Below the pieces are notes generated by a model that saw only the letters and a program-made list of their open reading frames with translations, was not told where the DNA came from and did not search any database. From Prostheceraeus crozeri (Eukaryota > Platyhelminthes > Polycladida > Euryleptidae), in contig CAJQUW010011310.1 of the NCBI GenBank assembly GCA_907163375.1, forward strand, positions 310,001-374,000: 64,000 nucleotides of DNA. Reading direction: 5' to 3'. Made by a program: the position numbers and the translations under genes. Of the stretch, positions 46,231 to 64,000 are shown one piece after another (the first letter of the stretch is position 1; each line of letters starts with the position of its first letter).

Positions 46231-46356
46231 TTATTTGTGAAGAGAATAGTGTAATGTGTTGATGATGTGAGTTCGGTTAGGTACATTTAAATGTTCTAGA
46301 GTTGTTAATTTGAACATGAATGGCAAAGTGTGAGGATTGAAACGTTGAGGATTGCT

Positions 46357-46672: not shown

Positions 46673-46710
46673 TGCTGAACTTGTTATTTTTTGAATGATT
46701 ATGTTGAAGG

Positions 46711-46717
46711 CTATCTA

Positions 46718-46755
<38 letters not shown>
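46711..46755. repeat. TA microsatellite
   Basis: A pure (TA)n run preceded by tatctatc, immediately upstream of the first Polinton gene. Confidence 0.9.
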
Positions 46756-46759
<4 letters not shown>

Positions 46760-46897
46760 GCATGGAGAATTGTTTATTATTATCATTATGGTTTGTGTTC
46801 GATTGAGACAATTGTGACCATTGTGTCCATTGTGACCATTGAATCCTTCATTTCTATTTTGTGTTCTTTTGTCAAATTTCTATCACACTCTATATAT

Positions 46898-47431: not shown

Positions 47432-47452
47432 TGACTCATCAAGCTCGCTTTT

Positions 47453-47486
47453 CATTGGTCATTAATGCTTTAGCCTGGCTATAAGA
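47453..47486 (+). promoter_or_regulatory. CCAAT-type word plus TATA box before the 203-aa gene
   Basis: CATTGGTC at 47453-47460 is followed by ggctataaga with its TATA at about 47480-47485. The downstream ATG is at 47544, leaving room for a start site about 30 bp after the TATA. The same 8-mer occurs at 50348-50355 and 61422-61429. Confidence 0.4.
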
Positions 47487-47543
47487 GAGAGAGATAATGG
47501 TTCTCGTTTCACTCATTCATTCATTCATTGAACAAGATTGAGC

Positions 47544-48155: not shown

Positions 48156-48283
48156 AGTGACATTGTGTATTACATGTATGTATTGAGCAACAATGCTATT
48201 TGTAGTTTGAATTATCATCATTGTATGTATTAAGCAATAATGTTATTCGCTTTCTTCTCATTCATTGTTGTAAAAAAAGAAAT

Positions 48284-48679
48284 ATGGTTGTACGAAGAAA
48301 ACGACGGTCTTTTCCCCGAAAGAAACGGTCATTTAAACCTTCAAGTCAGTTTAAGAAGGCATTGCGGAAATTGAATAAAATACATAATAATCGGAGGAAG
48401 TGTGAATTAATTCAAAATTCAAGTGATGACTTCATACGTGATTTGGCCTTTACAATTCACAAGTGTCTTCCAATATACAAGCCTTTGTTGAATCCTAGGT
48501 CTATCAAAAACATTCGCAAATTTTCGAATCCTAGGGGTAGTGATAAAGTCAGGAGAAATATGATTCAACATGGAGGTGGTGGCTTCATGGATATGCTAAA
48601 TGACATCAGTAATAGTATCTCCAAAGTGCTTGACAGTCCTCTAGGAAGAATTATTACAGGTGTTGCTTTGCTGGCATAA
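48284..48679 (+). CDS. small basic protein with C-terminal amphipathic segment (Polinton virion candidate)
   Basis: 131 aa from the first ATG (48284). The N-terminus is strongly basic (MVVRRKRRSFPRKKRS...), like a nucleic-acid-binding core protein. The C-terminus has a Gly run (HGGGGF) followed by an amphipathic-to-hydrophobic stretch (DISNSISKVLDSPLGRIITG). A Gly-rich site before such a helix recalls adenovirus-type minor virion proteins processed by the viral protease. The match is one of architecture, not of residues, and the exact adenain consensus is not met. Function unknown; probably a virion component. Confidence 0.5.
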   Translation: MVVRRKRRSFPRKKRSFKPSSQFKKALRKLNKIHNNRRKCELIQNSSDDFIRDLAFTIHKCLPIYKPLLNPRSIKNIRKFSNPRGSDKVRRNMIQHGGGGFMDMLNDISNSISKVLDSPLGRIITGVALLA

Positions 48680-48736
48680 AGCCAACAAATCAGAAGTCGA
48701 CACGTCATCGATTACTCATTGACATTGATTGAAGGC

Positions 48737-48744
48737 TATATAAG
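48737..48744 (+). promoter_or_regulatory. TATA box before the 257-aa gene
   Basis: ggctatataag, with TATA at 48737-48744, lies 67 bp before the ATG at 48811. It has the same ggctat(at)aag form as the box at 47480. Confidence 0.45.
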
Positions 48745-48810
48745 ATAGGCGTGCGAGCTTTCAGTAGTCATTTTCAAGTGATCATCCGTCAGTGTGAGTA
48801 CAACAACAAA

Positions 48811-49584
48811 ATGTCTCTTAAAATGCACATAATTAAGGAAGAGGGCGTCGCTGTTGATCGCGATCTCTTGAAATTTAGACCAACGCGTAAGGTTCAAGGA
48901 ATTGGAAACACGTTTTATTTTCAAACGCTTAATTATGGTGATGATGGATTATATTTACAAGTTCCATTTTTTCATAGCAATGGGATGTCATCGTCTAGCT
49001 ACAGCAATCTAAGACAAATGCGTGTCACATTTCCTAAATGGCAGCAAACTATACTAAAAATGATTGATTCATTCGCAAAGGAATGTGTCGAACTACCTGA
49101 CAGTGCTCCGGTACATTGGAAGAAGAAGTTGGAGGAAGGGAGTGGATTCAAAGATCTACCTGAGTTTGATACTCTCTTCTTAAAATTATCTGACCATTTC
49201 CAAGCGTTTGATGTGCTGTCAAACCCAATGGATTGTGATGATCTCAAGCGTGGGCGGTACATGGGCTTGGTACACGTTACTGGACTTTACATTGGCGCTC
49301 ATGGTTCAACTGGTAAATTGGCTTCTCTTCAGATGAAGGTTCTACAATTGGTTTATGAACCATTACCAATTGACAAGTGCTTAATTCATATTGAAGACAT
49401 TGCTACACCAAGTGAGCCGAAAGAATCAAACGATGCAAAAGAAGCCAAGGAGGTTGATGAAAGCAAGAAAAGGACGCGCAGATCGAGGGACAGCATGAAG
49501 CTAAAACTGAGGCGACAGGATGCACAACCTGACTTGAAGAGTTCCTTCGATTCTACTCTCGATGAAGACACTCAAATGTGGTAA
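48811..49584 (+). CDS. Polinton conserved-type protein, possible ssDNA-binding (257 aa)
   Basis: The ATG at 48811 has a good context (aacaaaATGT). Residues about 50-200 are mixed beta/alpha, with LYLQVPFFHSNG near the start and a late block, YMGLVHVTGLYIG...LQMKVLQLVYEPL...DKCLI. The last 55 residues are charged and low-complexity (SEPKESNDAKEAKEVDESKK, then Arg/Ser-rich). The late block, a beta strand ending 'VYEPL..KCLI', resembles the end of OB-fold ssDNA-binding proteins of large DNA viruses, and an acidic tail would fit an SSB. This is a structural guess. A replication element with its own polymerase would be expected to use an SSB. Confidence 0.45.
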   Translation: MSLKMHIIKEEGVAVDRDLLKFRPTRKVQGIGNTFYFQTLNYGDDGLYLQVPFFHSNGMSSSSYSNLRQMRVTFPKWQQTILKMIDSFAKECVELPDSAPVHWKKKLEEGSGFKDLPEFDTLFLKLSDHFQAFDVLSNPMDCDDLKRGRYMGLVHVTGLYIGAHGSTGKLASLQMKVLQLVYEPLPIDKCLIHIEDIATPSEPKESNDAKEAKEVDESKKRTRRSRDSMKLKLRRQDAQPDLKSSFDSTLDEDTQMW

Positions 49585-49677
49585 ATTAAAAGAACTGTTT
49601 ATCGTTTCAATAAAACTTGTTTGGAAATAATTTACATGTTTCAAGTTCTAACTAAGCAAAATAATGGGTGTTAGTAA

Positions 49678-50340
49678 ATGATGATGATATTGAATGACTC
49701 TGAAATGACAGATTTTCGACTATTCACTGACCGTACAATGTGTGTGGCCGGACCAAGTCAGTCTGGTAAAACAACTTTTGTAACTCAGCTACTGCAATAC
49801 AGAGATGAGATGTTTAATAAGAAAATAAAACAGGTTAAATGGTACTACGGTATTTTTCAACCAGATCTGCATTCTGCACTTCGACAGCAGGGATACGAAG
49901 TAAAACAGGGGCTACCACCAACTGAGGATATCCGAGCAGGTGATTTGATCGTGTTGGATGATCTACTTCGCGAAAGCAAATCTTCAAAAGATGTAACCGA
50001 AATGTTTATTCAAACAGCACACCATAGGCAAGCTTTTATCATCTACATCACTCAAAATATCTTTGATGGAGGAAAAGAGAAGAGAACTAGAAGTCTTAAT
50101 ACACACTATTTGGTGGTTTTCAAGAATCCAAGAGATAGTAGTCAGATACATCATTTGAGTCGACAAATATTACCTCAGCAGCCTAAAACTCTTTCGAAAA
50201 TATATGATGAAGTGACGAAGAAGCCACATGGCTACCTCTTCATTGACTTAACGCAAGAATGCCCAGAGCGATTTCGATTTCGAACTAATATTATACCAAA
50301 CTCTGGAGATGCAATGATAGTATTCACTGTCAACAGTTAA
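49678..50340 (+). CDS. FtsK/HerA-type genome-packaging ATPase
   Basis: 220 aa. A P-loop ATPase of the A32-like family that pumps DNA into capsids in Polintons, virophages and giant viruses. Walker A is GPSQSGKTT at residues 25-33, Walker B is LIVLDD at 90-95 and the sensor-type Gln is in ITQN (124-127). A conserved HHRQAFIIYITQNIFD block and the C-terminal GYLFIDL strand also fit. The length is normal for Polinton ATPases. The frame is intact. The ATG run at 49678 gives several alternative starts within three codons. Confidence 0.93.
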   Translation: MMMILNDSEMTDFRLFTDRTMCVAGPSQSGKTTFVTQLLQYRDEMFNKKIKQVKWYYGIFQPDLHSALRQQGYEVKQGLPPTEDIRAGDLIVLDDLLRESKSSKDVTEMFIQTAHHRQAFIIYITQNIFDGGKEKRTRSLNTHYLVVFKNPRDSSQIHHLSRQILPQQPKTLSKIYDEVTKKPHGYLFIDLTQECPERFRFRTNIIPNSGDAMIVFTVNS

Positions 50341-50347
50341 TTAATTG

Positions 50348-50355
50348 GACCAATG
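50348..50355. promoter_or_regulatory. CCAAT-type word before the helical protein gene
   Basis: gaccaatg, the complement of CATTGGTC, lies about 50 bp before the probable ATG at 50405, with a weak TATA-like ttttaag close behind. Confidence 0.3.
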
Positions 50356-50404
50356 ACAGTTTTAAGCAATACATATGTGCTTCAGCTACTATGACATTTT
50401 CAAT

Positions 50405-51055
50405 ATGAGTTTTTCAAAAATGGTTGTCATTCCTCAAGAGGAATATCTACAGCTATCAATGACAAGAAATATTCAGGAAGCTAAAAATGTGGATCAGCCG
50501 GTTACAGATCAACTTAAGCAATTATCTCAACAGGATAGGGAAATTCAAAAGATTGAGGATCCTTATCGACGAATGCAGTTACAGGCTGAGAATTTAGAGG
50601 AAAGACGACATATTAGGGAAAAGCTGCGCAAATTCATAACTCTTTCAACTCCTCGAGCATATCGCATGCGAGCTGAAAGGTTGTTTGATTTTATTGATCC
50701 TCACGTAAAGTTCAATGAGCGAGGAGAAATAATAGAAGAAAACGGTGATGTAATTAGGAACAGTCACATCGATGATCTTCTACAATATGCTGTGAGAGAT
50801 GTAAGGCGAAAGCTGGGTGCTCCACAAGGATGGGAATACTTTCAAAAATTGCTATCTAATCACAACGTTCCCCATAATATAATCGGAGGACCAACTATAA
50901 ATGAACTGAATAAAGTGTTGGCAACCGATTCTTCAAAAGGAAAAGTAGTTACCACAGTCAAGCGAGAACCCATTGTTTCTCCTGCTACGTCTCCAACTCC
51001 GAAGAGAAGAGGGAGACGCTCAACACGAACACCGAAAAGTTACAGCAAATATTAG
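50405..51055 (+). CDS. conserved Polinton helical protein of unknown role
   Basis: 216 aa from the ATG at 50405; an ATG at 50375 would add ten residues, and MVVIPQEEYLQL at 50420 could also be the start. The order of features matches a protein found next to the ATPase and integrase in many Polintons. It begins with a VxIPxEEY strand, followed by a long charged coiled-coil-like region (QLKQLSQQDREIQKIED...EERRHIREKL). A globular block (LFDFIDPHVKFNERGEIIEENG...) and a W-x2-F-x-K-L-L segment come next, and the tail is basic and Ser/Thr/Pro-rich (SPTPKRRGRRSTRTP). The last is a typical nuclear-targeting or DNA-contacting tail. The biochemical role is not known to me. Confidence 0.65.
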   Translation: MSFSKMVVIPQEEYLQLSMTRNIQEAKNVDQPVTDQLKQLSQQDREIQKIEDPYRRMQLQAENLEERRHIREKLRKFITLSTPRAYRMRAERLFDFIDPHVKFNERGEIIEENGDVIRNSHIDDLLQYAVRDVRRKLGAPQGWEYFQKLLSNHNVPHNIIGGPTINELNKVLATDSSKGKVVTTVKREPIVSPATSPTPKRRGRRSTRTPKSYSKY

Positions 51056-51221
51056 GCAAATAACAGTGAAATTGCTTCCCATATCATGTCTATGCAGAAA
51101 ATTTGCTGCTGTTTGAAGTCTGCGCTCGATAGTAAAGGAGAAGAGGGTATAGAAGTTGATATCAATTGCGTTAGCAGTTGCTGTGCAAGTAATACTCGAG
51201 CGAGTCGCCAGAATAAGGAGG

Positions 51222-52310
51222 ATGAGCGCAGCGGAAAAACTGAGACAAATCTACTACGATATCAATCATCCCGCAAGCTTCAGTCGTCCGAGCGTTTTAG
51301 CCCGTGCAGCAGGTGTACGAATAGAGACAGTGAAGAAATGGTTGAAGAGTCAACCAACCTACACGCTACACAAGGATGCGAGGAAGCGGTTTCCAACTAG
51401 GAGATATGTTGTCAATAATATTGACAGTCAATGGCAAGCAGATTTGGCTGATATGCAGCAGATATCTCAATACAATGACGGTTACAAGTACATCCTAACC
51501 GTAATAGATATTTTATCACGATATGCTTGGGTTCGCGCCTTGAAATCCAAGAGAGGAGCAGAAGTTGAGGCGGCTTTTCAAAGTATTCTAAATGAAGGGA
51601 GGATCCCACAAAGAATACAAACAGATCAAGGAAAGGAATTCGAAAATTCCCACGTTCGTGGTCTACTTGAGCGATATGACATTGAACTGTTCAGTGTTAA
51701 AAGTGCTTACAAAGCTGCGATGGTTGAGAGGTTCAATCGTACACTCAAGACAAAGATATGGCGGTATTTCAGTGCTAAAAATACACATGTCTGGATAGAT
51801 GATTTACAGAAGTTCGTGAGAAATTACAATGAGAGCTATCATCGGATTATAAAGATGCGTCCAATCGACGTCACTCGGGATAATGCTATGGATTTGTGGC
51901 TTCGTCTGTATGGCAAGGCACCAAAAACAACTACCGATAAGAAGAAAATCGACGTTGGTGATAGAGTTCGCATCTCTAAAGTGAAGTCTACATTCGAGAA
52001 GGGCTATCTACCGAACTGGACCGAAGAAGAATTTTTTGTTGATGAAGTAAATAAAAAATTTAAACCAACAATGTATAAGTTAATAGACTATCATGGTAAT
52101 CCAATTGAAGGGAAATTCTACTCATATGAATTACAAGTGGTTGATCGGAGTGAAGAAGTGTATATGATAGATAGAATAGTTAAGAGGAAAGGACATGGTA
52201 ATCATAGAAAATATCTCGTCAAATGGAAGGGATATCCTGACTCGTTCAACAGTTGGATAGCCCATCAAGACTTGAGAAATGTGGAAGTAGGAGACATTAG
52301 AAGCTTTTAA
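51222..52310 (+). CDS. Polinton DDE integrase with chromodomain
   Basis: 362 aa. Retroviral-type integrase that inserts the element into host DNA. The N-terminal HTH-like region (PSVLARAAGVRIETVKKWL) is followed by the catalytic core with Asp74 (WQADLADM), Asp135 (TDQGKEF) and Glu169 (MVERFNR). An SH3-like part with a GDRVRI strand comes next, then a C-terminal chromodomain at about 318-358 (YMIDRIVKRKG...YLVKWKGYPDSFNSW). The aromatic cage-like YMI/W/Y positions are present, so binding to methylated histone tails could guide integration. The frame begins earlier at a non-ATG codon; the first ATG is 51222. All catalytic residues are present. Confidence 0.95.
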   Translation: MSAAEKLRQIYYDINHPASFSRPSVLARAAGVRIETVKKWLKSQPTYTLHKDARKRFPTRRYVVNNIDSQWQADLADMQQISQYNDGYKYILTVIDILSRYAWVRALKSKRGAEVEAAFQSILNEGRIPQRIQTDQGKEFENSHVRGLLERYDIELFSVKSAYKAAMVERFNRTLKTKIWRYFSAKNTHVWIDDLQKFVRNYNESYHRIIKMRPIDVTRDNAMDLWLRLYGKAPKTTTDKKKIDVGDRVRISKVKSTFEKGYLPNWTEEEFFVDEVNKKFKPTMYKLIDYHGNPIEGKFYSYELQVVDRSEEVYMIDRIVKRKGHGNHRKYLVKWKGYPDSFNSWIAHQDLRNVEVGDIRSF

Positions 52311-52354
52311 GCTAATATTGGTGAATGACTACTGATCCCACATTATATCCAATA

Positions 52355-53938
52355 ATGTCGTCTGCTGAGTTCAACATCATTCTCCCGAGCAACAGCAATC
52401 CAAAGATATTTCCAGAGAACAAACCATCGGAGTATTCGGTTGAGTTTGCCAAGCCTCTTTATCTGAGTGGCCCTCACGAAGTCGCATTAACTGAAGTCAC
52501 ATATTACAATGATATTAGTTTGTTAACGAATAATTATTTTGAAATACACACGGAAGTACGTGAAAAGGATGATTGTTTTCGCCTATTTCAGAATGGTCTA
52601 CATGGAACATGGGATTTTCATCATCTTACTTTACATCCTTTCTCACCATCGCTACCGTCTGTCAAGAACATGATCAAAATTGAAAAGGCATATGCAACGT
52701 CTTCCTTCAATTCTACAGTTCCCACACTCAGCTTGCAAGATACAGAGAATGAAATTGGTAAAATGTTCCGACGAATAAACGATCTCTTCACTCTCACTTT
52801 AAATAGATTCTTCAAGCCAGTTGTAAAAGGCTCAACTAAACTATTGAAAGAAGGGAGGAAGCATGTTCTGCTAATATTAGGTAGAGATTTGGCACACACT
52901 CTAGGGTTTCCCAGAACTACATTTTCATCTCTACATTGGTATAATGGACTTGGATGGAAAGCTGAGAGAACAGTTAGTGATTTTCAATGTAGAATTGCAC
53001 CGTTGTATGCACTACAGAAAAGGAGTGTCCGCGTCAAGGAAAAATTTGAAGTTATTAAAAATATTGAAGACGTTGCAAGAAAGTTTCAAGGATCAGTGCC
53101 AGAAAGTTTAATGACTTGTGAATATAAGAAAGAGAAAGTAACTCTTTTTACTGCTGAAATGGAGGTAGAATTTCTTGTTTTCACTAAAAAGACACCTTTG
53201 GAAAAGTCTAATTCCGCTGTTATTGAATTCGGATCAGAAATTCAGAGACTATTCAAGCATCCTGATAGTCCACCGTGTTTGACAGAATTAAATGATACAT
53301 ATAAGATTCAGTTGAATTCCAATAAACTAAAGACAGCAACAAACGACGCATGGCACATCAATGTATATTCCGATAAAATACTGGCTGACGAATTGAGTAC
53401 CTCAACTGAGCTAGTAAGGAGGGTCAATTTAAACGTTGAAGATCTAAACACACCATCGGAAATTTGTACAAAACTAAATGAAAATGGTGCACACTACCTC
53501 AACGCAGATGAGTACTTCTTTTCATATGATCCCTTAAAGAAGCGAATGGTTTTAAAAGTAGGGAGAAATTATCTCATTAAGCTCGACAAGATGTTGGCAA
53601 CAATTCTAGGGTTCTCAAAATTCACAATAAATGAAGGTACAACCATTGGTAATTCAGCACCTTCATTAGAGAGAGACATCAGTAACTTATATATTTACTG
53701 CAATATTGTTGAGTATACTAGAGTTGGTGACATCGAGGCTCCATTGCTACGCACATTTCCCCTATCATCCGGCCGGAAGCAGTTAATCAATCGTGAATTC
53801 ATCAACAAAATGTATTTACCGATCAATCGAAGTGTTATCAATAGAATCGACATTTCAATTCATGATGATGCGGGTGAAATTGTTCCATTCTATGGTGGTG
53901 TTACTGTGCTGACACTACATATTAAGAATCGAGACTAA
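52355..53938 (+). CDS. Polinton minor capsid/penton candidate
   Basis: 527 aa from the ATG at 52355 (an ATG at 52325 would add ten residues). The N-terminal block (FNIILPSNSNPKIFPENKP, then a strand ending in SGPHEVALTEVTY) and C-terminal block (NLYIYCNIVEYTRVGDIEA, PLLRTFPL) define a protein present in most animal Polintons, and the C-terminus ends in the usual PFYGGVTVLTLHIKNRD-type strand. Such proteins lie beside the major capsid gene and are the best candidates for the single-jelly-roll vertex protein. I see beta-rich sequence throughout and no signal peptide. The assignment to penton rather than another structural protein rests on position and memory of the family, not on a fold comparison. 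Confidence 0.65.
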   Translation: MSSAEFNIILPSNSNPKIFPENKPSEYSVEFAKPLYLSGPHEVALTEVTYYNDISLLTNNYFEIHTEVREKDDCFRLFQNGLHGTWDFHHLTLHPFSPSLPSVKNMIKIEKAYATSSFNSTVPTLSLQDTENEIGKMFRRINDLFTLTLNRFFKPVVKGSTKLLKEGRKHVLLILGRDLAHTLGFPRTTFSSLHWYNGLGWKAERTVSDFQCRIAPLYALQKRSVRVKEKFEVIKNIEDVARKFQGSVPESLMTCEYKKEKVTLFTAEMEVEFLVFTKKTPLEKSNSAVIEFGSEIQRLFKHPDSPPCLTELNDTYKIQLNSNKLKTATNDAWHINVYSDKILADELSTSTELVRRVNLNVEDLNTPSEICTKLNENGAHYLNADEYFFSYDPLKKRMVLKVGRNYLIKLDKMLATILGFSKFTINEGTTIGNSAPSLERDISNLYIYCNIVEYTRVGDIEAPLLRTFPLSSGRKQLINREFINKMYLPINRSVINRIDISIHDDAGEIVPFYGGVTVLTLHIKNRD

Positions 53939-53980
53939 GGCTTTACGCTATTGTGAAATTCTTCAGAATTCAAATTTACA

Positions 53981-54457
53981 ATGACAGGCTTTTATAGCAG
54001 ACCATCATATCAAAGCGGATATCCCGTATTTGCTGGAGGTAGGCGACAAGTAGGAGGCGGAATATTTGGTGCATTAAAGCGTGCATTACTTCCTGGACTT
54101 AAACGCTATGCGTTGCCAGTGATGAAACGCGTAGGAAACAGAGCTTTAGATTTTGGTGCAAATGTTGCTGCGGATGCACTCCAAGGAGCGGATATAGGAG
54201 AATCAATGAAAGTCCGTGCTCAGCAATCAGCTATTGATGCATTGGATGACCTAACAAAGTCGAGACGACCTGTTCGTAAGAGGCGCAACAAGACAAGACA
54301 AGTTGGATCCGGTCGAGTTACTAAGCAAAGACGAAGAGTTAGGAAATCTAGATCGAAGCTTCCTGTGAAGAAGACAAGAAAGCGAAAGCGAAAGCGAAAG
54401 CGGAAATCGAAATCAGTTGGAAATAAGTCGAAACGAAGGAGATTAACGTATTTCTAA
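53981..54457 (+). CDS. PX-like basic virion/core protein (Polinton)
   Basis: 158 aa. The order matches a conserved Polinton protein: a Gly-rich start (VFAGGRRQVGGGIFGALKR), a helical segment (LLPGLKRYALPVMKRVGNRA), a block around FGANVAADALQGADIGES and a very basic tail with an (KR)n run near residue 135-142 and a KRRRLTYF end. The basic tail suggests DNA condensation in the particle, as with adenovirus core proteins, and the GG/GGG sites may be cut by the element's protease. The gene sits directly before the major capsid gene with an 11-nt gap, suggesting coordinated expression. Confidence 0.7.
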   Translation: MTGFYSRPSYQSGYPVFAGGRRQVGGGIFGALKRALLPGLKRYALPVMKRVGNRALDFGANVAADALQGADIGESMKVRAQQSAIDALDDLTKSRRPVRKRRNKTRQVGSGRVTKQRRRVRKSRSKLPVKKTRKRKRKRKRKSKSVGNKSKRRRLTYF

Positions 54458-54467
54458 ACTGAGCGAA

Positions 54468-55754
54468 ATGCAATCGACTATCAATTCAGCTTTGTGCTTT
54501 TTTGATACATCACCCCAGCAAACTGACATAATTTCGTCGAGAATTGTTGACTATTTTCCCTCAACAAATATTGTGGGTAATGACATACCTATTCAGTTTG
54601 ATGTTACTGCTAATGCTGACGACTACATCGACTGTCAGTCTATTGACTTGGAATTGTGTGTACAAATTAAAAAAACTGATGGTACTAACATTGATTCTAA
54701 GGACAAAGTGGGGTTGATTAATCTCCCAATTGCCAGTCTCTTCTCAGATGTCACTTTATCACTAAATAATAAGCAGATTGAAGGAGGAGATTCATCATAT
54801 CCATATGGAGCTTACTTATATACATTGACTCAGTTTCAAAACCAGGCCAAACAAACGCACTTACAAGCTGCTGGTTGGTTTACAGATCAGTCTGGTAAGT
54901 TCGATGATTTCGCTAATAATGGTTTGAAAAAGCGTGTGGAATTAACTGCTGATTCAGCTGAACTACATCTAAAAGGTCCTGTCTATCTTGATTTTTTCCG
55001 TCAATCGAGATACCTCCTATCTCAAGTACAAATGCGATTGACATTTGTTCGTGCTAAATCAAAATTTGCTTTGATGTCATTCGGACCTGCTGCATCCTAT
55101 GATGTACACATAACGGAAGCTGTCCTCAATGTAAGGCGAGTAAAAATGAATCCCACAGTCATCAATCAACATGCTGTAGGACTGAAGAACCACAATGCTA
55201 TATATCCAGTCAATCATAGTGTACTAACCACTTTTACGATTCCGGCGACTACCTCATCTTTTGATTATCCCAACCTCTTTCCAATTGCCCTACCGAAGGC
55301 GGTGTACATCGCGTTTGTAGAAAATGAATCATTTTGTGGTAACTTTCAGAAGAATCCGTTTCATTTTCAACATTTTGGTATCACGAAACTCGGTCTATTC
55401 GCAGATGGCAATTCAGTTGCTTGTAAGGCCTATCAACCGAATTTTAAGGAAAACAATTTTGTTCGCGAATATTGCTCTACTTTCATGGCACTAGACATGT
55501 TCAACACTGACGATTCAAATGGTATTACGATGGATATGTATAAGAATGGCTACTTCTATATATTATACAACCTCAAAGCAGATTGTGATATAACTGGGGA
55601 AAATGTGGATGTTACAAAAGCTGGTAACCTTCGATTGGAACTCACATTTGCGGATCCTTTGAAAGTTCCTGTAACGGGTTTACTTTACGCAATCTATGAC
55701 AGCAGCATTGAAATTACTAGATTGAGAGACGTCTTGGCCAACTATCAGAGATGA
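54468..55754 (+). CDS. major capsid protein, double jelly-roll
   Basis: 428 aa. It corresponds to the Polinton protein family often annotated as F54H12.2-like, shown in the literature to be a double-jelly-roll hexon. Visible hallmarks: VDYFPSTNIVGNDIPIQFDV, the strand pair YIDCQSIDLELCVQI, the block INLPIASLFSDVTLSLNNKQ with GGDSSYPYGAYLYTL, the Q..AKQTHLQAAGWFTDQ helix, and a late ITMDMYKNGYFYILYNL segment before the final strand (LRLELTFADPL). Length is normal. Its stop overlaps the protease ATG by four bases (ATGA), the tightest coupling in the block. Confidence 0.9.
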   Translation: MQSTINSALCFFDTSPQQTDIISSRIVDYFPSTNIVGNDIPIQFDVTANADDYIDCQSIDLELCVQIKKTDGTNIDSKDKVGLINLPIASLFSDVTLSLNNKQIEGGDSSYPYGAYLYTLTQFQNQAKQTHLQAAGWFTDQSGKFDDFANNGLKKRVELTADSAELHLKGPVYLDFFRQSRYLLSQVQMRLTFVRAKSKFALMSFGPAASYDVHITEAVLNVRRVKMNPTVINQHAVGLKNHNAIYPVNHSVLTTFTIPATTSSFDYPNLFPIALPKAVYIAFVENESFCGNFQKNPFHFQHFGITKLGLFADGNSVACKAYQPNFKENNFVREYCSTFMALDMFNTDDSNGITMDMYKNGYFYILYNLKADCDITGENVDVTKAGNLRLELTFADPLKVPVTGLLYAIYDSSIEITRLRDVLANYQR

Positions 55755-56212
55755 GCAACCTCAGTAATGTGGAAATCTTAAACTTAATGAAGAAAGCTCA
55801 TCCCTATTCCAAGAAATTGTTTCTCAATGTATTCCCAAGAGATGAACTACCTACATCAATTCAGTCATATCCCTGTTCTCTGATTATAAATACAGACACG
55901 GTTAATCTTCGTGGTAAACATTGGGTTGCGGTGTACATAAATCGCAATAGAGTAGCTGAATATTTTGATTCTCTCAATCAGCCGCCATTACATGATATAT
56001 CAATATGGATCAATAGATTCTCATGGACTAGAAAGAAAGTGACATCGTTCCCACTCCAAAGTAATAGATCCCTCATGTGTGGGGGCTACGTACTATATTT
56101 TGTTAATGAACGACCTTTGAAAAGTGACTATAAAAGTGTTATTCGATTATTCTCTAGAAATTGTGCTAAAAACGATGTAATTCTCAACAATTATATGAAC
56201 TCAGTCTTGTAA
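55751..56212 (+). CDS. adenain-like cysteine protease (virion maturation)
   Basis: 153 aa. A C5/Ulp1-like protease that in adenoviruses and Polintons cleaves capsid precursor proteins. The catalytic set is in the expected order: His57 in GKHWVAVYI, Asp73 in YFDSLN, Gln103 in FPLQSN and Cys110 in MCGGYVLYF. It is somewhat shorter than adenovirus protease (about 204 aa), as is common in Polintons. The ATG overlaps the end of the capsid gene. An AATAAA overlapping the stop (56212-56217) is a candidate poly(A) signal for the plus-strand block. Confidence 0.9.
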   Translation: MSNLSNVEILNLMKKAHPYSKKLFLNVFPRDELPTSIQSYPCSLIINTDTVNLRGKHWVAVYINRNRVAEYFDSLNQPPLHDISIWINRFSWTRKKVTSFPLQSNRSLMCGGYVLYFVNERPLKSDYKSVIRLFSRNCAKNDVILNNYMNSVL

Positions 56213-56298
56213 TAAATTCATTATATATGCAAAATTTGTTTTATTTCCCAGAGCGTAATGTTTAGAGGGAGAGCAAAGTTTCACAATTGAAATGTATA

Positions 56299-56362
56299 TT
56301 TACAAACTATTTACAACAGTCCATCAACTTTTTACAAACTATTTACAACAGTCCATCAACTT
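56299..56362 (+). repeat. 32-bp perfect tandem duplication at the convergence point
   Basis: ttacaaactatttacaacag plus twelve more bases is present twice in a row (56299-56330 and 56331-56362). The second copy runs into the stop codon of the minus-strand TBP-like gene, so it shapes the 3' ends of both gene blocks. Confidence 0.85.
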
Positions 56363-56919
56363 TTTACAAAATAATTTTTCAAATCACTTATTATTTGGGA
56401 TACAACTTTCAAGTCTTTAATGCCAGTTATCACAACTTTCCCATTGTGGAACACGTGAACGTGATAAGGATGCCAATTTGTCATTTGCGCAGCAGGAAAT
56501 AACTCCACCTCATAAGTAAGATTGGACGTAGAGGAAACTTTGCGAAAGTCATAGCGATAATTCAATTCGCATAACACTGTCATGGTTTTTACTTTCCAAT
56601 TAGGTAATTTATCCCGTAATAGTATTTCCAACACGGAGTGTAGGTAATTGAGATCACAATCATCGAAGCACCCAACACACTGCACTGTTCCATTAGGAAA
56701 GAAAAGGACAGTCATAGATTTCTCCTTCCTCAAGATTCTCCATGTCAACATTGTGGGTCGCCCCAGATACAAACTCGTCGTCGGCTTTCGCCTCTTCTTC
56801 ACTATTAGCCATTGCTTTCTGTTGGGTATGTCTCGCTCGATTTGATGTAGATCGAGTTTTGAGTTTGCTTTTGTAACCACCATGCGATTCACCACTTTCA
56901 TCTGACTGATGTCGTCCAT
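56356..56919 (-). CDS. TATA-binding-protein-like protein (Polinton)
   Basis: 187 aa, read from 56919 down. It follows the TBP core in order through both pseudo-symmetric repeats. The first repeat has KLDLHQIERDIPN at about 22-34, where TBP has KLDLKTI..RARN, then MTVLFFPNGTVQCVG at 69-83 where TBP has ALIFSSGKMVCTG. The linker includes VKTMTVLCELNYRYDF. The second repeat has YEVELFPAAQM at 137-147, where TBP has YEPELFPGL, and HVHVFHNGKVVITG at 155-168 where TBP has LLIFVSGKVVLTG, followed by a final helix. Phe74, Phe141 and Phe157 align with three of the four DNA-kinking phenylalanines; the fourth (near 55-57) seems replaced. An insertion of about ten residues lies in repeat one. The likely role is promoter recognition for the element's own genes. 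The first 227 nt overlap the neighbouring PC4-like frame. Confidence 0.8.
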   Translation of the reverse strand: MDDISQMKVVNRMVVTKANSKLDLHQIERDIPNRKQWLIVKKRRKPTTSLYLGRPTMLTWRILRKEKSMTVLFFPNGTVQCVGCFDDCDLNYLHSVLEILLRDKLPNWKVKTMTVLCELNYRYDFRKVSSTSNLTYEVELFPAAQMTNWHPYHVHVFHNGKVVITGIKDLKVVSQIISDLKNYFVKS

Positions 56920-57277
56920 CTCTGACGAATGAAATTATACTTGGTAGAATCTCCTTTATAAAGGAACCCCATGTGACGTCACTAAAACGAAAAAATCGAT
57001 GATCAACGTCTTTCCTCTTGGATGAACATACGTAAAGTTTGACAGTTGAATCATATTTTATCCATACCTTTTCATCCAGAGGAATCTTCATCCGAGTATC
57101 ATGTCGCTCAATCAGATTAGCAAAATCTTTAAGTGAGGGCAATGCGTCACTACTAATAGAAACACCACGATGATTTCTACTATTTGTTACAGAATGTCGA
57201 AAAACTATTTTGCTTGAATCTGTTAGGTGAATTTTTTGTCTGTCACTTAACTTCCATGTTCTGATATAATGAGGCAT
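56693..57277 (-). CDS. putative tandem PC4 (p15)-like transcription cofactor (Polinton)
   Basis: 194 aa. The first 115 residues appear to be two copies of a beta-hairpin plus strand-helix unit: KIVFRHSV...RGVSISSDALPSLKDF and KLYVCSS...RFFRFSDVTWGSFIKEI. This is the layout of PC4, whose second half reads KGISLxxExWxxLK; PC4 works as a dimer, so a tandem copy would give the same saddle in one chain. The remaining 75 residues are hydrophilic and acidic, ending in NLEEGEIYDCPFLS, and are encoded in the stretch that also encodes the TBP-like N-terminus in another frame. PC4 binds single-stranded DNA and general transcription factors, fitting its neighbour. The PC4 call is weaker than the TBP call; it could be an unrelated two-domain protein. 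Confidence 0.45.
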   Translation of the reverse strand: MPHYIRTWKLSDRQKIHLTDSSKIVFRHSVTNSRNHRGVSISSDALPSLKDFANLIERHDTRMKIPLDEKVWIKYDSTVKLYVCSSKRKDVDHRFFRFSDVTWGSFIKEILPSIISFVRDGRHQSDESGESHGGYKSKLKTRSTSNRARHTQQKAMANSEEEAKADDEFVSGATHNVDMENLEEGEIYDCPFLS

Positions 57278-57486
57278 ATTCTGAAGTTATTCTTAATGTA
57301 ATTATTATAATCTGATAATTGCCTAAAGTTAGTTTATGTTTGCAAATCAACATATCGGAAGGATGCTGAATGCTGTTATGTATTCAAATTCAATTTCTAC
57401 ATATCGGAAAGATGTAGAAATGTACACTCAAATATTTACTACCTACGTGTTATTTTTTTTTATGGATTCTACCGTTGTTCTATCCG

Positions 57487-58917
57487 CTATTCTACATCAC
57501 CTGCTGTGGGAAGACATTTTCGTCTTTTTGACGGAGGAGGAAGTCCAAGGCTATAGTGTCCATATGGTAAAGATAAGTTCTTATTTATCCAGCAGCGCTT
57601 ATCTTCCCAAAGTGAGAGCCCTCGCTTTCTAAACGTTTTTGTTTCAACTATGTGGTTTTTTGAATTTATGACGGTTATTTGCTCATTGGTATCTTTCTCA
57701 GTATAGTAAACATTTCTATAGTCACTATGTTCTATGCGTCTAACCACTGCTCTCTGTATACCCTTTGCTCGCCTAATGCTATGATGTGTTGAATCTAGAA
57801 ATTTCATTGAATACATTTTTGGTTTCAAAAGAACCATCTCCTCAAGCAACTTTCCCGCGCACTCATCCTTAAAACAACCGAGTCTAGCCTTGTTTGTAAT
57901 TGAATATAAACGGTGATTCACATCATAATTTGAGGAATCAAATTTTTCACCGAAATACAGGAATATATCCTCTAGACGAACAGATGGTGAGGTGTATAGA
58001 CAAAGGAAAAAGCTATCGGTATCACCTCCACAAAGACGTGCTCTATTTATCAGTGGACATCTAATTAAATCTTTATAATACAACTGGTACATTTCTAATT
58101 TACTATAGTCAAGAACTGCTTGACCAACATAAATTAGTTTATTTAGAACTATTGAAGGTTTATACAGTTCCATACCAACTAAATCTTCATCGAATATCTT
58201 ATGCTGGACATATAGGGGATGATTGGCCAATTTAGATAGTTGCAATGTTGTATTTACTAATTTGAAGTTCCTCCGACGTCTCACATTCTCCATAGTCTTA
58301 CCAAACAGGGAGTTGTTTTTTAATTTATAAAACGCTTTTTCAAAATCAGATTTTGATTGAGCTCTTTTCTGCGAATTCATATCAATATATTGTCTCAGCC
58401 ACGATTTTTGTGTGAACTGGATTCCAGCATGGACCTTCTTTATCTTCATTCCCATAGAGAGGTAGAATTTTAGAATCGAGTAATGAACAACATAATTTTC
58501 TCGATCGAACTGATGCAGCAACAGTTTCTTTGTGCTTGTGAAACACATATTTGGTCTTAAAGTTTCATAGAAATTTTTCATATATGTAGAAAACATTTTT
58601 TGCTCTACCAATTGCATTTCTGGAGCTAATGGAAAATCAGCCGTGTCATCGTGAATGTCTGAAGGATATTCTAAATCCAAATCAAAGACATAACCTATAT
58701 CAGCCTCATTATCAATATTTTGAATGTTTTCCTCATTTGAGAAGTACACTACTTGACCTTCATCAAGCCATTTGAAGTTTGAATGTGGGAGATTCTCACT
58801 TAGCGACGAACCGTAAAGGTTGTTGACGTCTAAATATGCTAAATGACGGCTCTCATGTGGATTGTTTTGCAACTCTGAAATACGAGCACGCGCTCTATGA
58901 ATATTTGTAAACGTCAT
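57487..58917 (-). CDS. protein-primed DNA polymerase B, C-terminal (polymerase) part
   Basis: 476 aa as an open frame from the ATG at 58917. It contains the polymerase motifs: A as YLDVNNLYGSSL (Asp30), B as KLKNNSLFGKTMEN (about 198-210), C as GGDTDSFF (Asp299, Asp301) and the KPKMYSMKF motif near the C-terminus. Between A and B lies a spacer of the size expected for the TPR insertions of protein-primed polymerases. The frame is a direct continuation of the 58914-61346 frame after a one-base shift. The two overlap by four bases (ATGA), so a separate short start is formally possible. The catalytic aspartates are all present. Confidence 0.9.
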   Translation of the reverse strand: MTFTNIHRARARISELQNNPHESRHLAYLDVNNLYGSSLSENLPHSNFKWLDEGQVVYFSNEENIQNIDNEADIGYVFDLDLEYPSDIHDDTADFPLAPEMQLVEQKMFSTYMKNFYETLRPNMCFTSTKKLLLHQFDRENYVVHYSILKFYLSMGMKIKKVHAGIQFTQKSWLRQYIDMNSQKRAQSKSDFEKAFYKLKNNSLFGKTMENVRRRRNFKLVNTTLQLSKLANHPLYVQHKIFDEDLVGMELYKPSIVLNKLIYVGQAVLDYSKLEMYQLYYKDLIRCPLINRARLCGGDTDSFFLCLYTSPSVRLEDIFLYFGEKFDSSNYDVNHRLYSITNKARLGCFKDECAGKLLEEMVLLKPKMYSMKFLDSTHHSIRRAKGIQRAVVRRIEHSDYRNVYYTEKDTNEQITVINSKNHIVETKTFRKRGLSLWEDKRCWINKNLSLPYGHYSLGLPPPSKRRKCLPTAGDVE

Positions 58918-61346
58918 ACCTCCTCGGATCCCCTCTCAAAAAGATTATACATGCTCTCATCTTGAATGTAGTGTGGAGGATCATTCGAAGCAAAATTCAA
59001 TGCTGATGTGAAGCTAAGGTGAGGTAGGCTAACAAAATGAACTGGATCTACTTGATCTTCATCCTGACTTAATTTCCTAAATGTCTCAAAAATGTCTGCC
59101 AACAGCAAGACATCTAACTTGAGGTATGCAAGCATGTAGTCTCCAAATGTTTTGCAATTAAACGCATTCCATGCTTTTTTCGCGTGCTCATAATCTATAT
59201 CGTTGCAATGCTCAAGAGTAAGATCGTTGTAAAATTCCCTTTGAGGAGGAAGACAGAGCTCCGTTAGAGTTGCCAAACTACTAAAATATGAGTACGGAAA
59301 CACTCCTTTTTCGTAAAGAATATCATCAGTTAATTTTGGAAATTCATTTCGCAGCGCTTCTACATGTTTGTAGACTTTCAGACTTTTGGCTAATTCAGCA
59401 AGCGATGCGCTCAGAAATTGATAAGAGTCCAAAAATTTCAATTTAAAATATACAGGCTTTCCATTATATTCGCTTACTGGAATTTTTGATGATAGAGTAA
59501 TATATTTCTCAGCAGTAGCTGCAATAACATCTAACTTCCAAGATTTCTTTTTACCAATTGCTTTATAACAAACAATATGGCTGTCATAGTTTTTGAAATT
59601 GTGAAAGAAAACAGGAAGCTCTCGTCGATTCAATCTTAATCGCAAATTGCACTTTGAACATAATGCTTGCCTGTACTTTCCGGTTATGTGATCGTGATCA
59701 CGAACTTTTGATATATCTTCACTAAATTTTATCTTACATTTATTGCAATTTTCTGCATTTTTATGAGCAATATCTTCCACTGCTGTCAATCGCATCGGCA
59801 TTCTGGTCATGACATTTTGATTATCATATAAATTTTGGACAACATCTTCTAAATGATTTAGGAACTCAGCGATGCAATTTTCCCCTTCAAACAGATAATA
59901 GGTGTTATTGTAGGTTGACTGAAGTGCCTCATGCCAGACGTGGTACACACCTACAGCCGCAGGTTTATGAATTTTGTTTTCTATTAAACACTCGATATCG
60001 GCGTATATGACTAAAGGTGGACTGAGTTGGTGCTCAGTACTACTTATCTGAACTTCTAAATGTTTGGGCATTTTTTCTATTTGCGCCTTACCACGACTAC
60101 AGAATTGAAAATGTCGTTCTAAAACGCTTCTCTTTGAAAAGGATTGAGTGCATCTTTCACAAAAAATCTTGCGACTTGTGTAAAATTTGCTATATAACCT
60201 AGATAATTTTCGTATGCCGCAATAATGGGCAAAACCGTTATGTAGCACTAGCAAAATATTAACGGTTCTTTTGCCAATGAAATTGCTGTTGTATCTTACT
60301 CCCTTGAGACCATTTTCATACAAGTGGATATTTACTTTTATATCATTGTTTTTCTCAAACTTAGGAATGTCCTTTATTGACACTGGTGTGGAAATGCCAT
60401 CCATAACCAATTCAGATGTCCACTTTCTATATGAGTTTACCTCGTTTATCTTTGAATGAGTAACTTCATCGTAGTGAATGATTGACAAGATAGAATACAT
60501 GAAGCAGTCATTTGAATTTGAATTTACATTTATTACAGCCTTAGAACTTCTTAACTTTTTAGGTAAAGTATTCATTTTACCACCAGATAGTAGAGGAGTT
60601 GAAATTAAATTGAATTCTACATTTACTACTTTATCAACAACCCAATTGCTTCCTCTATTTGCAAAAGTTGAAACATGATTTGATAAACTATTTAAATTAT
60701 CCTGAAACCATGTGTCAAAGTCATATATATAATTTGATGATAATGAGGTGAAGTGCGCGAGAAAAGTTTCTTCCTCTTGAGGATTAGAACGGACATAGCG
60801 AATTTGAGCAATTAATCGACCACGTAGTTGAAGACTAGTTCGCAAGTCATTAACTAAATTTTCTAGTAAGGTTCGCATGTTGAATAAAAAAGATGTTACA
60901 TCTACTGTTTGAATGGTTGGTGTAATGTCATACACGCGAGCACGTCCGCTGAAGGCGCTTTCACTAAGGGTGAGTGTTCCATAATTATTGTGACTACTCA
61001 TTTCAATGTTCATATCATGTATATTATTGTGTTGACGGAATCTACTTGTGCTATTATAATTCTTACCACAGTGAGAGCAGCAATGCCTAAAAGCTTCATC
61101 ATTATTTAAAGCGCTATCTGGAATGTCCCTAACATGACTACTACAAGTTGATAAATTAGTATTATTTGTTCCTATTCCTTCTTGACTGCAACATACGAGA
61201 TTGTGTCTTTTTAAATTATCTTTCCTACTGGTTTCATATGGACAATTACTACATTTATGCTTTATTCCTAGCTTGCAAAATTTTTCATGACGCGTTAAAT
61301 TGCTAACAATTGTAAACTTCTTTCCACACTTAGAGCAGACAACCAT
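58914..61346 (-). CDS. protein-primed DNA polymerase B, N-terminal (zinc-finger and exonuclease) part
   Basis: 810 aa. The N-terminus has C2H2/C2HC fingers at about 4-24, 32-52 and 90-110, with another at 396-416. The proofreading exonuclease follows: Exo I is YADIEC (Asp450, Glu452), Exo II is NFKNYDSH (Asn586, Asp588) and Exo III is YLKLDVLLLAD (Tyr741, Asp745). An endonuclease-VII-like treble clef sits inside, with C534-x2-C537, VRDHDHITGKYR and C563-x2-C566, a known insertion in animal Polinton polymerases. The frame ends at residue 810, just after FERG, where other Polinton polymerases continue without interruption. A run of four Gs on the minus strand (58930-58933) marks the frame change. 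Confidence 0.92.
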   Translation of the reverse strand: MVVCSKCGKKFTIVSNLTRHEKFCKLGIKHKCSNCPYETSRKDNLKRHNLVCCSQEGIGTNNTNLSTCSSHVRDIPDSALNNDEAFRHCCSHCGKNYNSTSRFRQHNNIHDMNIEMSSHNNYGTLTLSESAFSGRARVYDITPTIQTVDVTSFLFNMRTLLENLVNDLRTSLQLRGRLIAQIRYVRSNPQEEETFLAHFTSLSSNYIYDFDTWFQDNLNSLSNHVSTFANRGSNWVVDKVVNVEFNLISTPLLSGGKMNTLPKKLRSSKAVINVNSNSNDCFMYSILSIIHYDEVTHSKINEVNSYRKWTSELVMDGISTPVSIKDIPKFEKNNDIKVNIHLYENGLKGVRYNSNFIGKRTVNILLVLHNGFAHYCGIRKLSRLYSKFYTSRKIFCERCTQSFSKRSVLERHFQFCSRGKAQIEKMPKHLEVQISSTEHQLSPPLVIYADIECLIENKIHKPAAVGVYHVWHEALQSTYNNTYYLFEGENCIAEFLNHLEDVVQNLYDNQNVMTRMPMRLTAVEDIAHKNAENCNKCKIKFSEDISKVRDHDHITGKYRQALCSKCNLRLRLNRRELPVFFHNFKNYDSHIVCYKAIGKKKSWKLDVIAATAEKYITLSSKIPVSEYNGKPVYFKLKFLDSYQFLSASLAELAKSLKVYKHVEALRNEFPKLTDDILYEKGVFPYSYFSSLATLTELCLPPQREFYNDLTLEHCNDIDYEHAKKAWNAFNCKTFGDYMLAYLKLDVLLLADIFETFRKLSQDEDQVDPVHFVSLPHLSFTSALNFASNDPPHYIQDESMYNLFERGSEEV

Positions 61347-61378
61347 GATGATCGTTAAGGATTAACAATTTGCGTCTA

Positions 61379-61429
61379 CTTATATACTGTCTACATATTA
61401 TATTACGTAACCAGTGACGTCGACCAATG
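61379..61429 (-). promoter_or_regulatory. polymerase promoter: TATA, CRE-like and CCAAT-type words
   Basis: On the minus strand, cattggtc (61422-61429) and an adjacent gacgtca-type CRE core (61414-61421) lie upstream of gtatataag (61379-61387). The polymerase ATG is at 61346, about 35 bp from the TATA box, implying a very short leader. Confidence 0.45.
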
Positions 61430-61514
61430 GAATTTGTTCTCAACCTAAGACATATTTCCACTTAAATACATAAATAAGAAGACATACAAAGTGTACAAGT
61501 AATTATTTTTTCCA

Positions 61515-61560
61515 AAAGAAGTCAAAAAAGTCAAAGAAGTCAAAAAAGTCAAAGAGATTG
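61515..61560 (-). repeat. AAAAAGTCAAAGAAGTC microsatellite
   Basis: Four alternating aaagaagtc/aaaaaagtc units at the 3' end of the five-exon gene, overlapping its stop region. Confidence 0.7.
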
Positions 61561-63268
61561 ACACTTAATAATGTCACTATGCGTCACCTTGACGTGAGCA
61601 CAATGTCCATGACACCTTGAGAAGTCATCGACATGTGTCATGCGCACTTTGTTGATAACTGCCGCTTTCGATAGCTCAACGTGCATTATTGTTTCACGCT
61701 TCACTATCGATTGCGACAGTTGCAGGTTAGCCTGCGAAATGTTGCGGAACGACTCAAGCAAAGACTTGTAGTCAGCGCGAAGAGCCGTCTCGCGTTCCTC
61801 TTGTTGGCGCAACTTACGTTCAAGGTGACGCACTTTGTCCTCCGTCGAACGAGGTTCGACCACCTCGAGCACAGATTCAACTGTCTCATCGAGGTCGCAG
61901 TTGAACGTTGGATCGCAAGTTGGGAGGATTACTGTCGGTGTAGGACTGTTGGGCATCGGCGTAGGAGCAGGTGGTGACGATGGGACCCAGTTGTTACTCA
62001 TTGGTGGCTGAGGTGGTGTTGGGACGTGGTGGAGAATTGGAGACGGTGGGAAGCAGACATCAATATCGGGTGAGGCGCGGATTTGGGAGAACGGAATCTC
62101 CTCTTCCGGAACAAGTGTCAACTGTTGCTGGAAAAAACAGAGATTTGAATAAATGAAAGGGACATAACATCACGAGTTCGATGTGACGACATGATAGTTA
62201 GGATTATTAGCCTATTCCTATGATTGATACTTACATTTTCTTCATCTGAAGAGGACTCCCGGATGGAATACGGGCGCTCCTCATTTTCCTCCATCGACGA
62301 TGTCGTTGCAGGTGTTAAGCCGAGGAAATTCGATTGCCTGCTCTTTTTTAGAGAGAGCGATCGGTAGCTCTACAAGGGAAAATACATTTAAATTCCTCTC
62401 GAATTTGAATGTATGCATGTGACCTAAGTTAGTAATCTAATCATGTTATTTTATATGACTAAAATGATTTTCTATTACTTACTCTCTGTGAAGGCGGCGT
62501 AGGCTTCACAGCCCAGCTGCAACATGCGGGCGTACTAGCGACTACCTGTGGATAGAAAAGAAACATAGTTAAAATGTAAAAATCGGAAAATACATATGAA
62601 TAGATAAATTGCTGATTTGACATTTCAAACTTACATTCCTTTCAGGAATCGATGGCTTCTGCCCGACTTTCATCTTCTTAACAGGTGGCTTCTTGATCTG
62701 AAATGGTGAAAAGAAATGCACACTATTATATATGAAAAACAGAAGTCAACTTTCCCTATAAGGTTTGAACTCTAAATATTTTCTTTAAATTATGTTACTG
62801 CTAATTTTCTAAATATGAACTCACCTCAACATCACTATCCGAGGAGTCGGAATCGGTGTCGATATACCTGCGGGACTTGGGTTTGGGTTTGGGTTTCGCC
62901 TTCGCTTGGGGCATTGCAGGGGTAGAGTCCTCCTGGGCTTGGCTGAGGATGCCTTCAAGAGGTCGATCTTTGGCGAACAGCCTCTCGACTCTCTTCTTCT
63001 CCTCCAAACTAGTGAGGTTTAGGCCCTCCCGCCCGTTTCGTAAGGCGCACTTGGTGTGGGTGGAGATAAATCTCTTTGGATTTTCGCCTTTTGCCTCCAT
63101 GTCCGTTAAAAGGTATCTTTTACACGATAGGCAGTAAAGGAAACTGCGGTCCTGTCGTAGAGTGCAGCCCTTATGTTGACTCTTCATGGAGTGGCGGACC
63201 ACCTGCTTACAGGTCTCACAATAATGAAAAATTAGACGTTGGCGAGGTAAGCAGCTGGGACGAGGCAT
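61549..63268 (-). CDS. five-exon gene: CCHC-finger/coiled-coil protein of unknown function
   Basis: Coding segments on the minus strand are 62825-63268, 62635-62697, 62483-62545, 62235-62369 and 61549-62127, giving 427 aa. All four introns (127, 89, 113 and 107 bp) are GT-AG with GTRAGT donors and interrupt between codons (phase 0). The first segment has two zinc-finger patterns, C17-x2-C20-x11-H-x2-C35 and C46-x2-C49-x21-H-x2-C74, then a basic KPKPKPK stretch and an acidic DTDSDSSDSDVE end. The middle segments are Ser/Pro-rich. The last has a Pro-rich part (PPSPILHHVPTPPQPP) and a long coiled coil (KVRHLERKLRQQEERETALR). An acceptor (ttttttacag) sits two bases before the ATG, so an upstream exon exists. 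I do not recognise the family. It lies outside the core Polinton genes and may be captured cargo or a neighbouring gene. Confidence 0.7.
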
Positions 63269-63330
63269 GTCTGTAAAAAAATAAATCCATATTTAAAACA
63301 CAAAATAGCTTAAATGTAAATTTTGCATCT

Positions 63331-64000
63331 GTAGGTGTTAGAACATATTGATGTACATACTTATACACTTAGAAAAAGTAGCATTTAAATTGTTCCAAGT
63401 CACATCGTAGTAGTGAATATTATTCGAAGTAGAACACCTAAAGTCTGTAATAAACTTAATAATCAAAACTCAAAGTCTATTAATTTTGATCAAGTCTTTT
63501 TCTATCTCTCTAGGTTTAGAACTTATTGATGTACCTACTTTTAAACTTAGAAAAAAGTAACATTTAAATTGTTCCAAACTCACTTTAGAATATTGATTAA
63601 GGTTTGAAAGAACGGAGCTGACGTCTTGCTAGGCAGGCTGATAATTCAAAAATGAGTGAAGAACTGTCTTCAACACTTTATTTATATATGAAATGCACAA
63701 AGCAACTACGAACAAAGACCTACTGACGTCATGCCATTGAGATGATATAGTTAAACAAAATGTATTCATTTAAACAAGATTCAAAATCAAACAGCTGATA
63801 AAGTGTAACATTAATAACTTGACATTAAATTGTAACAGAGTTTATTAATTTTGATCAAGTTATTTTCTATCTCTTTAGGTTTAGAACATTAATGTACCTA
63901 CTTATGAACTTAGAAGAAAGTAACATGTAAATTGTTCCAAACTCACATCGTGGTAGTGAGTATTATACGTAAGAGAATAGCTAAAGTCTTTAATAAATTT
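63331..64000 (+). repeat. three diverged copies of a 130-160-bp unit
   Basis: Copies start near 63331, 63476 and 63838. The shared order is taatttttgatcaagt (copies 2 and 3), tttctatctct(c/t)tagg, tttagaac(a)t, gatgtac(c/a)tactt, aaacttagaa and gttccaa(a/g)..cac. Copies 1 and 3 also share gtagtgagtatta-type sequence. The second and third are separated by about 230 bp of unrelated sequence. They lie upstream of the five-exon gene and may be its 5' region or the right terminal region of the Polinton. Confidence 0.75.

Follow-up and report, generated by a model that had tools for sequence, protein, structure and literature searches.

A Polinton of the flatworm Prostheceraeus crozeri encodes a TATA-binding protein with relatives in further Polinton families

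The sequence analysed here is a 64,000-nucleotide (nt) stretch of a Prostheceraeus crozeri contig (hereafter the window), in which positions 46083–64000 belong to a Polinton, and this element encodes a TATA-binding protein (TBP). The gene is located on the minus strand (56356–56919) as an open reading frame (ORF) of 187 amino acids (aa) from ATG to stop, it contains two TBP repeats, and it is a TBP gene by profile, fold, and signature residues. We consider it probable (roughly 60%) that the Polinton TBP recruits the host transcription machinery to the promoters of the element. Polintons are placed close to the origin of many DNA viruses of eukaryotes and are believed to depend on host transcription. 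With TBP as a standard gene in several families, some Polintons would carry the first promoter-recognition factor themselves.

The PF00352 score of the 187-aa protein is 50.7 bits (cut-off, 22.9), obtained in two stretches that cover both repeats. In a sequence search of the PDB, the best E-value was 4.1e-5, and TBPs made up the whole list of 35 rows to E 0.0061; a profile built from 13 relatives matched TBP with an E-value of 1.8e-10. The predicted structure has the TBP saddle fold, with residues 1–187 aligning to TBP structures, and identity to cellular and archaeal TBPs in these structural alignments is 18–22%. An earlier, sequence-only reading of the window had seen two TBP repeats in order and had proposed that structure and profile be compared with those of TBP; the order of the repeats was confirmed by the PF00352, PDB, and 13-relative profile matches, and the comparison came out in favour of that reading over the whole protein, with both repeats above the PF00352 cut-off.

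Genome-wide counts of the gene are lower bounds, as the searches score the best candidates only. Among the 150 matches listed in a protein search of the genome, 81 showed 90–100% identity (the family of the window, family i) and 69 showed 73–74% (a second family, family ii); an identical TBP protein is encoded by 18 of the 150, the window's own included, and 138 contain no internal stop, whereas a stop lies inside the other 12. The 150 matches listed in a Pfam search comprised two exons of the host TBP gene (C9306), two exons of a host gene that we take to be an animal-type, TLF-like gene (C3829), and 146 others, and none of these coincided with the protein-search coordinates when compared by eye. 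The 20 loci examined added families iii (180 aa), iv (frames of 198–209 aa), v (234-aa frames), and vi (broken).

The place of the gene was compared by tblastn of 17 window genes (g numbers below) against 10-kb contexts. TBP is antisense to, and adjoins, the protease gene in families ii (L009 and L010), iv (L047), v (L048 and L050), and vi (L046, with an interrupted TBP), and g9, g10, and the integrase gene follow in this order behind the TBP–protease pair in all four families. Homologues at the same place in other Polintons, for which the sequence-only reading had suggested a search, are thus present in further families. In families iv–vi, the TBPs show 25–33% identity to that of the window, compared with 46–53% for the C-terminal part of the polymerase and 41–43% for g10. 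In a polymerase-based search (90 rows), the three elements examined, all of family v, carry TBP at this place (3/3). In family iii (L045 and L049), the polymerase is inverted and neither a protease nor an integrase was detected within the 9.9 kb examined, and the fixed place of TBP is therefore not shared by this family. The TBP pair in the family iii elements stands among different, unassigned proteins, and these elements may represent another type. A viral contig collection scanned with P0001, A1, A3, the polymerase, A5, and A6 yielded no confirmed relative. Metagenome relatives of the Polinton TBP, which are proteins without genomic context, reach E-values of 1e-20 to 1e-75.

For a comparison of residues, 14 TBPs of the Polinton type or GRP type were aligned with host TBP. 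The first DNA-kinking Phe of repeat 1 is replaced by Pro in all 14, and the remaining three kinking Phe are Phe in all 14, in agreement with the three of four that the sequence-only reading had counted in the window protein. By the four-Phe criterion, the window protein is thus not a canonical TBP, but by fold and profile it is a TBP; it is likewise set apart from TLF/TRF2, which have lost most kinking Phe, as three of four are retained. The YExEL loop, which in TBP faces TFIIB in known complexes, is retained in 14/14 sequences with one E-to-D change. The repeat-1 Asn is present in all 13 TBPs whose sequence reaches that position and the repeat-2 Asn in 9 of 14 (Thr in the window, family ii, P0003, P0013, and P0023), while the repeat-1 Thr is lost and the repeat-2 Thr retained in all 14. 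The group signature is GRPxM in place of the first DNA-kinking Phe, with the other three Phe and the YExEL loop retained. Among the metagenome matches, GRPx[MLV] was found in 55 of 121, or 55 of the 82 with at least 150 aa; of the matches without it, many lack their beginning and about 23 represent TBPs of other kinds. In the form GRPxM ... YExELFPA, the signature can be used to find further such genes.

These residues bear on two alternatives in which the protein would not start transcription of the element. As a decoy without specific DNA binding, it would sequester TFIIB with its TFIIB-facing edge and damp host transcription or antiviral genes, in partial analogy to TLF/TRF2, which act with no TATA binding; repeat 1 is altered in every member (GRPxM, Thr lost) and the YExEL edge is intact, as such a decoy would have it, but three of the four Phe and a minor-groove Asn, needless for a pure decoy, have been kept, whereas in the host TLF-like exon the kinking-Phe positions covered are occupied by W, H, and Y. 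We regard a decoy as unlikely. The second alternative, a TBP-fold protein that bends DNA at the element ends or acts in a packaging or replication complex rather than in transcription, would suit the location of the gene in the polymerase-side block, always adjoining ORF g13; it gives no reason, however, for a TFIIB-facing loop retained in every sequence aligned, and we consider it distinctly improbable. Recruitment of TFIIB and RNA polymerase II (Pol II), as in the reading that we prefer, is what we infer from the fold, the retained TFIIB edge, and the conservation of the protein.

The TBP start lies inside g13, an upstream ORF of 194 aa (56693–57277, minus strand) with no Pfam match. The two ORFs overlap by 227 nt in family i, 338 nt in family iii (L045), 311 nt in family iv (L047), and 326 nt in family v (L048 and L052), with a frame offset of 1 in every family compared, including family ii. 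In the window, the overlap (56693–56919) spans the altered repeat 1, and repeat 2 of family i, located outside the overlap, retains the canonical residues. The rebuilt half of the protein is the half encoded in the overlap, so that, on the tentative reading of a changed promoter specificity given below, this change could share its origin with the overprinting.

Between families i and ii, the ratio of non-synonymous to synonymous substitution rates (dN/dS) of the TBP gene is 0.13 (0.07 outside the overlap), and those of the polymerase, protease, g10, g8, and g13 genes are 0.07, 0.11, 0.10, 0.15, and 0.36, respectively, dS being saturated for several genes in this comparison. The Polinton TBP is under purifying selection. 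The dS value is 0.73–0.82 within the overlap vs 2.27 outside it, a reduction that is expected if both frames are read. Because of the overlap, the TBP gene has been shortened by gene callers, e.g. the protein database entry P0002 is a 119-aa piece that begins within repeat 1.

Relatives of g13 were detected by tblastn in families ii and v only, and its counterparts in families iii and iv are assigned by place and a weak alignment (16–17%). A tandem PC4-like coactivator was considered for g13 and rejected, as none of 11 members gave a meaningful Pfam match (best E 0.056, to a Nudix model), the best PDB match had an E-value of 0.11, and the structure model was poor (predicted local distance difference test score, 38.2). 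In family v, two short ORFs precede TBP (L048, 4998–5351 and 5377–6024; also L051–L053), of which the first is the g13 tblastn match (E ~1e-5 to 1e-6) and the second is similar by eye.

A tree of 85 rows, consisting of Polinton, host, and metagenome TBPs with no named giant-virus or archaeal TBP, separated 61 rows, including families i–v, from 24 rows, including host TBP, with support of 100/99; the tree is unrooted and was drawn with midpoint rooting. Long branches were seen for P0107, P0119, P0013, and P0063, and P0100, tagged as GRP by a loose pattern, groups with other TBPs. As judged from these sequences, the Polinton TBPs group together, apart from host TBP. Families i and ii fall in one half of this group, and families iii, iv, and v fall in the other, amid metagenome proteins; as the families are spread over both halves, the TBP gene is old in this lineage relative to the family split. 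A recent capture from host TBP was also considered, and the tree position is not in its favour. Two more odd metagenome TBP groups (P0089, P0093, P0096, P0098, P0102, and P0108 in one; P0109 and P0115–P0118 in the other) are well supported and lie apart from both host TBP and the GRP group, and they are perhaps TBPs of other viruses.

It is hardly conceivable that the gene resembles TBP by chance or is a pseudogene of host TBP lying in the element by accident. Fold, two-repeat profile, conserved place, purifying selection, and a tree position away from host TBP refute both, and chance resemblance is excluded also by the identical or near-identical intact copies, the metagenome relatives, and the dN/dS of 0.13.

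In the mechanism that we propose, TBP would be produced from the polymerase-side gene block and would bind the element's promoters, using the canonical repeat 2 together with the altered repeat 1. The promoter site would be handed to host TFIIB and Pol II, and Polinton genes would be transcribed without, or in competition with, host TFIID; by analogy, this mode of action would resemble that of the beta- and gammaherpesvirus TBP-like proteins, which substitute for host TBP at late promoters. Recognition by TBP of the element's own promoters is plausible. The candidate target is TTWADGCWA, present 14–72 nt before several Polinton start codons, and which promoter the Polinton TBP reads (TTTAAGCAAT-type vs TATATAAG DNA) is a testable question.

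In the window, TTWADGCWA sites are located on the plus strand at 50361–50369, 14 nt upstream of the start codon at 50375, and at 52306–52314, 19 nt upstream of the start codon at 52325, the latter also being present in family ii. A TTTACGCTAT site lies in a spacer at 53942–53951 (plus strand), 39 nt upstream of the start codon at 53981, and family ii has the identical site at -40. Exact matches to TTWADGCWA and its relatives numbered 14 in families i, ii, iv, and v, of which 11 were located 14–72 nt before starts, compared with a mean of 0.65 for permuted motifs, a count that is suggestive only, as the motif was derived from near-top k-mers and then from other families and the start codons were chosen by the analyst. 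With a motif taken from the window only and one mismatch allowed, 7 of 20 matches in four other-family loci were near a start, as against 0.75.

Several points weigh against this target. Blind counts of 7–10-mers in 120-nt upstream regions of 16 genes revealed none above dinucleotide shuffles, and the count of 11 is partly circular because the motif was fixed after other families had been viewed. Of the 11 sites, two fall within the reading frame of g10, and a single family is represented by both L048 and L052. No exact TTTAMGCWAT was found in family iii (L045) or family v (L048), and one of the two in L047 is away from any start. The TTWADGCWA sites precede genes on both strands and therefore do not mark a late class, and they could be sites of a host bZIP or POU protein. 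The Thr in place of the repeat-2 Asn in the window and family ii is a further change in the DNA-binding surface.

The TBP of the element might also target an ordinary TATA box, TTWADGCWA being a host activator site. TATAWAWR is present before 3 of 16 genes (equalled in 7 of 300 shuffles), and TATATAAG is found at 61379–61386 (minus strand), 40 nt before the polymerase start and behind GACGTCA; in family ii, a TATATATAG-type stretch lies behind GACGTCA at the matching place. This alternative would also be in line with the sequences TTACGCAAT and TTATGCAAA, which we take to resemble C/EBP and octamer sites, respectively. Against it, all members have another residue in place of one kinking Phe and of the repeat-1 Thr, both of which serve TATA reading, and an ordinary TATA target appears to us possible but doubtful. 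A more specific form of our own reading, i.e. a promoter system run by a lineage of animal Polintons, in which a GRPxM-type TBP overprinted on a partner gene reads TTWADGCWA as a Polinton-specific core element instead of TATA, presents it to TFIIB and Pol II of the host, and so switches on genes of the element selectively, is put forward only tentatively.

Among known systems, the beta- and gammaherpesvirus vTBPs (KSHV ORF24, EBV BcRF1, and HCMV UL87) are described in passages of PMC7498053 as taking the place of TBP at late promoters whose core is TATT rather than TATA. They are viral TBP-like proteins of nuclear DNA viruses that use host Pol II, and the Polinton protein would be a second such case. 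The vTBP, however, is a domain of a larger protein, binds the C-terminal domain of Pol II, and needs five further viral proteins, whereas the Polinton TBP is free-standing, aligns to TBP over all 187 aa, is recognisable by Pfam, and retains the TFIIB edge. On this description, the Polinton TBP is not a member of the herpesvirus vTBP family. From cellular and archaeal TBPs it differs in its low identity (18–22%), the GRPxM that replaces the first Phe loop, the lost repeat-1 Thr, and the ORF overlap.

The finding of TBP in a DNA virus would not by itself be new, because TBP is recorded in 59% of mirusvirus genomes vs 0% of Nucleocytoviricota (in the part of PMC10132985 concerned with this gene) and in a megavirus that has its own RNA polymerase (in the relevant part of PMC11464507). 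No RNA polymerase subunit turned up in profile scans of the Polinton genes. Mirusviruses have HK97-type capsids (according to a section of PMC10675990), not Polinton genes. Known Polintons, Mavericks, and adintoviruses share with the present element the terminal inverted repeats (TIRs), 6-bp duplication, and rve integrase, and its putative protease, P-loop ATPase, and family-B-type polymerase would be further Polinton genes; no report of a TBP in any of them was found in the openly searchable literature (a scope that leaves aside subscription papers and Repbase, and includes PMC11071296, PMC11071308, PMC8097293, PMC10328495, PMC12220804, PMC10120064, PMC12721341, and PMC4028283). The closest report, in the same section of PMC10675990, is of TBP genes in an alga's elements of likely mirusvirus origin. 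The elements that host the TBP gene here are present in an animal-type genome as hundreds of insertions.

The element ends were set by piecewise comparison of five copies. The left end is the start of homology between copies, and the right end lies 4.5 kb outside the window, at C9381:378487 (window coordinate 68487), resulting in a total length of ~22.4 kb. TAGGCT is present on both sides of the element as a 6-bp target duplication (left copy, 46077–46082), and perfect duplications, different in sequence each time, were found in four of the five copies; for the remaining one (C1273), no right end was found within the stretch compared. The left TIR (46083–46877) has its partner at 67698–68487, outside the window (98.6% over 796 blastn columns). 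The TIRs, target duplications, and rve integrase bear out the earlier assignment of the element to the Polintons. Around the TBP gene, eight copies differ at 0 to 26 positions in ~3.5 kb (28 pairs), and the window family has therefore moved recently.

On the plus strand, the element encodes a RING-finger protein (46898–47431; PF13920, 33.2 bits, cut-off 27), a putative P-loop ATPase (49678–50340; PF13173, 26.7 bits, just below the cut-off of 27.0) with 50.5% identity to the corresponding L046 gene, which by its place in the element is a candidate packaging-type ATPase, and an rve integrase with a chromodomain (51156–52310; PF00665, 48.9 bits, cut-off 32.6; PF00385, 37.0 bits, above cut-off). 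These are followed by two conserved Polinton proteins, g8 (52325–53938, 537 aa; 74–76% in family ii and 23–46% pieces in families iv–vi), a capsid-region candidate, and g10 (54468–55754, 428 aa), a possible major-capsid candidate for which there was no Pfam match and no credible PDB match (best E 0.57). A putative C48-type cysteine protease (55751–56212; PF02902, E 0.0013, 19.0 bits, below the cut-off of 20.7) shows 32–40% identity in families iv–vi.

On the minus strand, we take the ORFs at 57487–61346 to be a family-B-type DNA polymerase from their motifs. The C-terminal part (57487–58917) contains LYGSS, NNSLFG, and GDTDS, which are invariant across three families, and has no Pfam, PDB, or NCBIfam profile match; the N-terminal part (58914–61346) contains C2H2 fingers (PF00096, just below cut-off) and an endonuclease VII-like domain (PF02945, 30.9 bits, above cut-off). 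The two ORFs overlap by 4 nt in this copy (ATGA, 58914–58917), and family v has single frames of ~1272 codons. Polymerase copies in opposite directions within a few kb were seen at G000:C4432:149209-155104, C8499:8131-13779, and C388:20041-24834, which may reflect head-to-head joining of elements or halves. A tandem array of ~543-bp units extends from ~63328 to ~65568 in window coordinates (L011, 1828–4068), with a unit number that varies between element copies, and tandem units of ~31 bp, with indels between copies, are present in both TIRs (left, window ~46358–46673).
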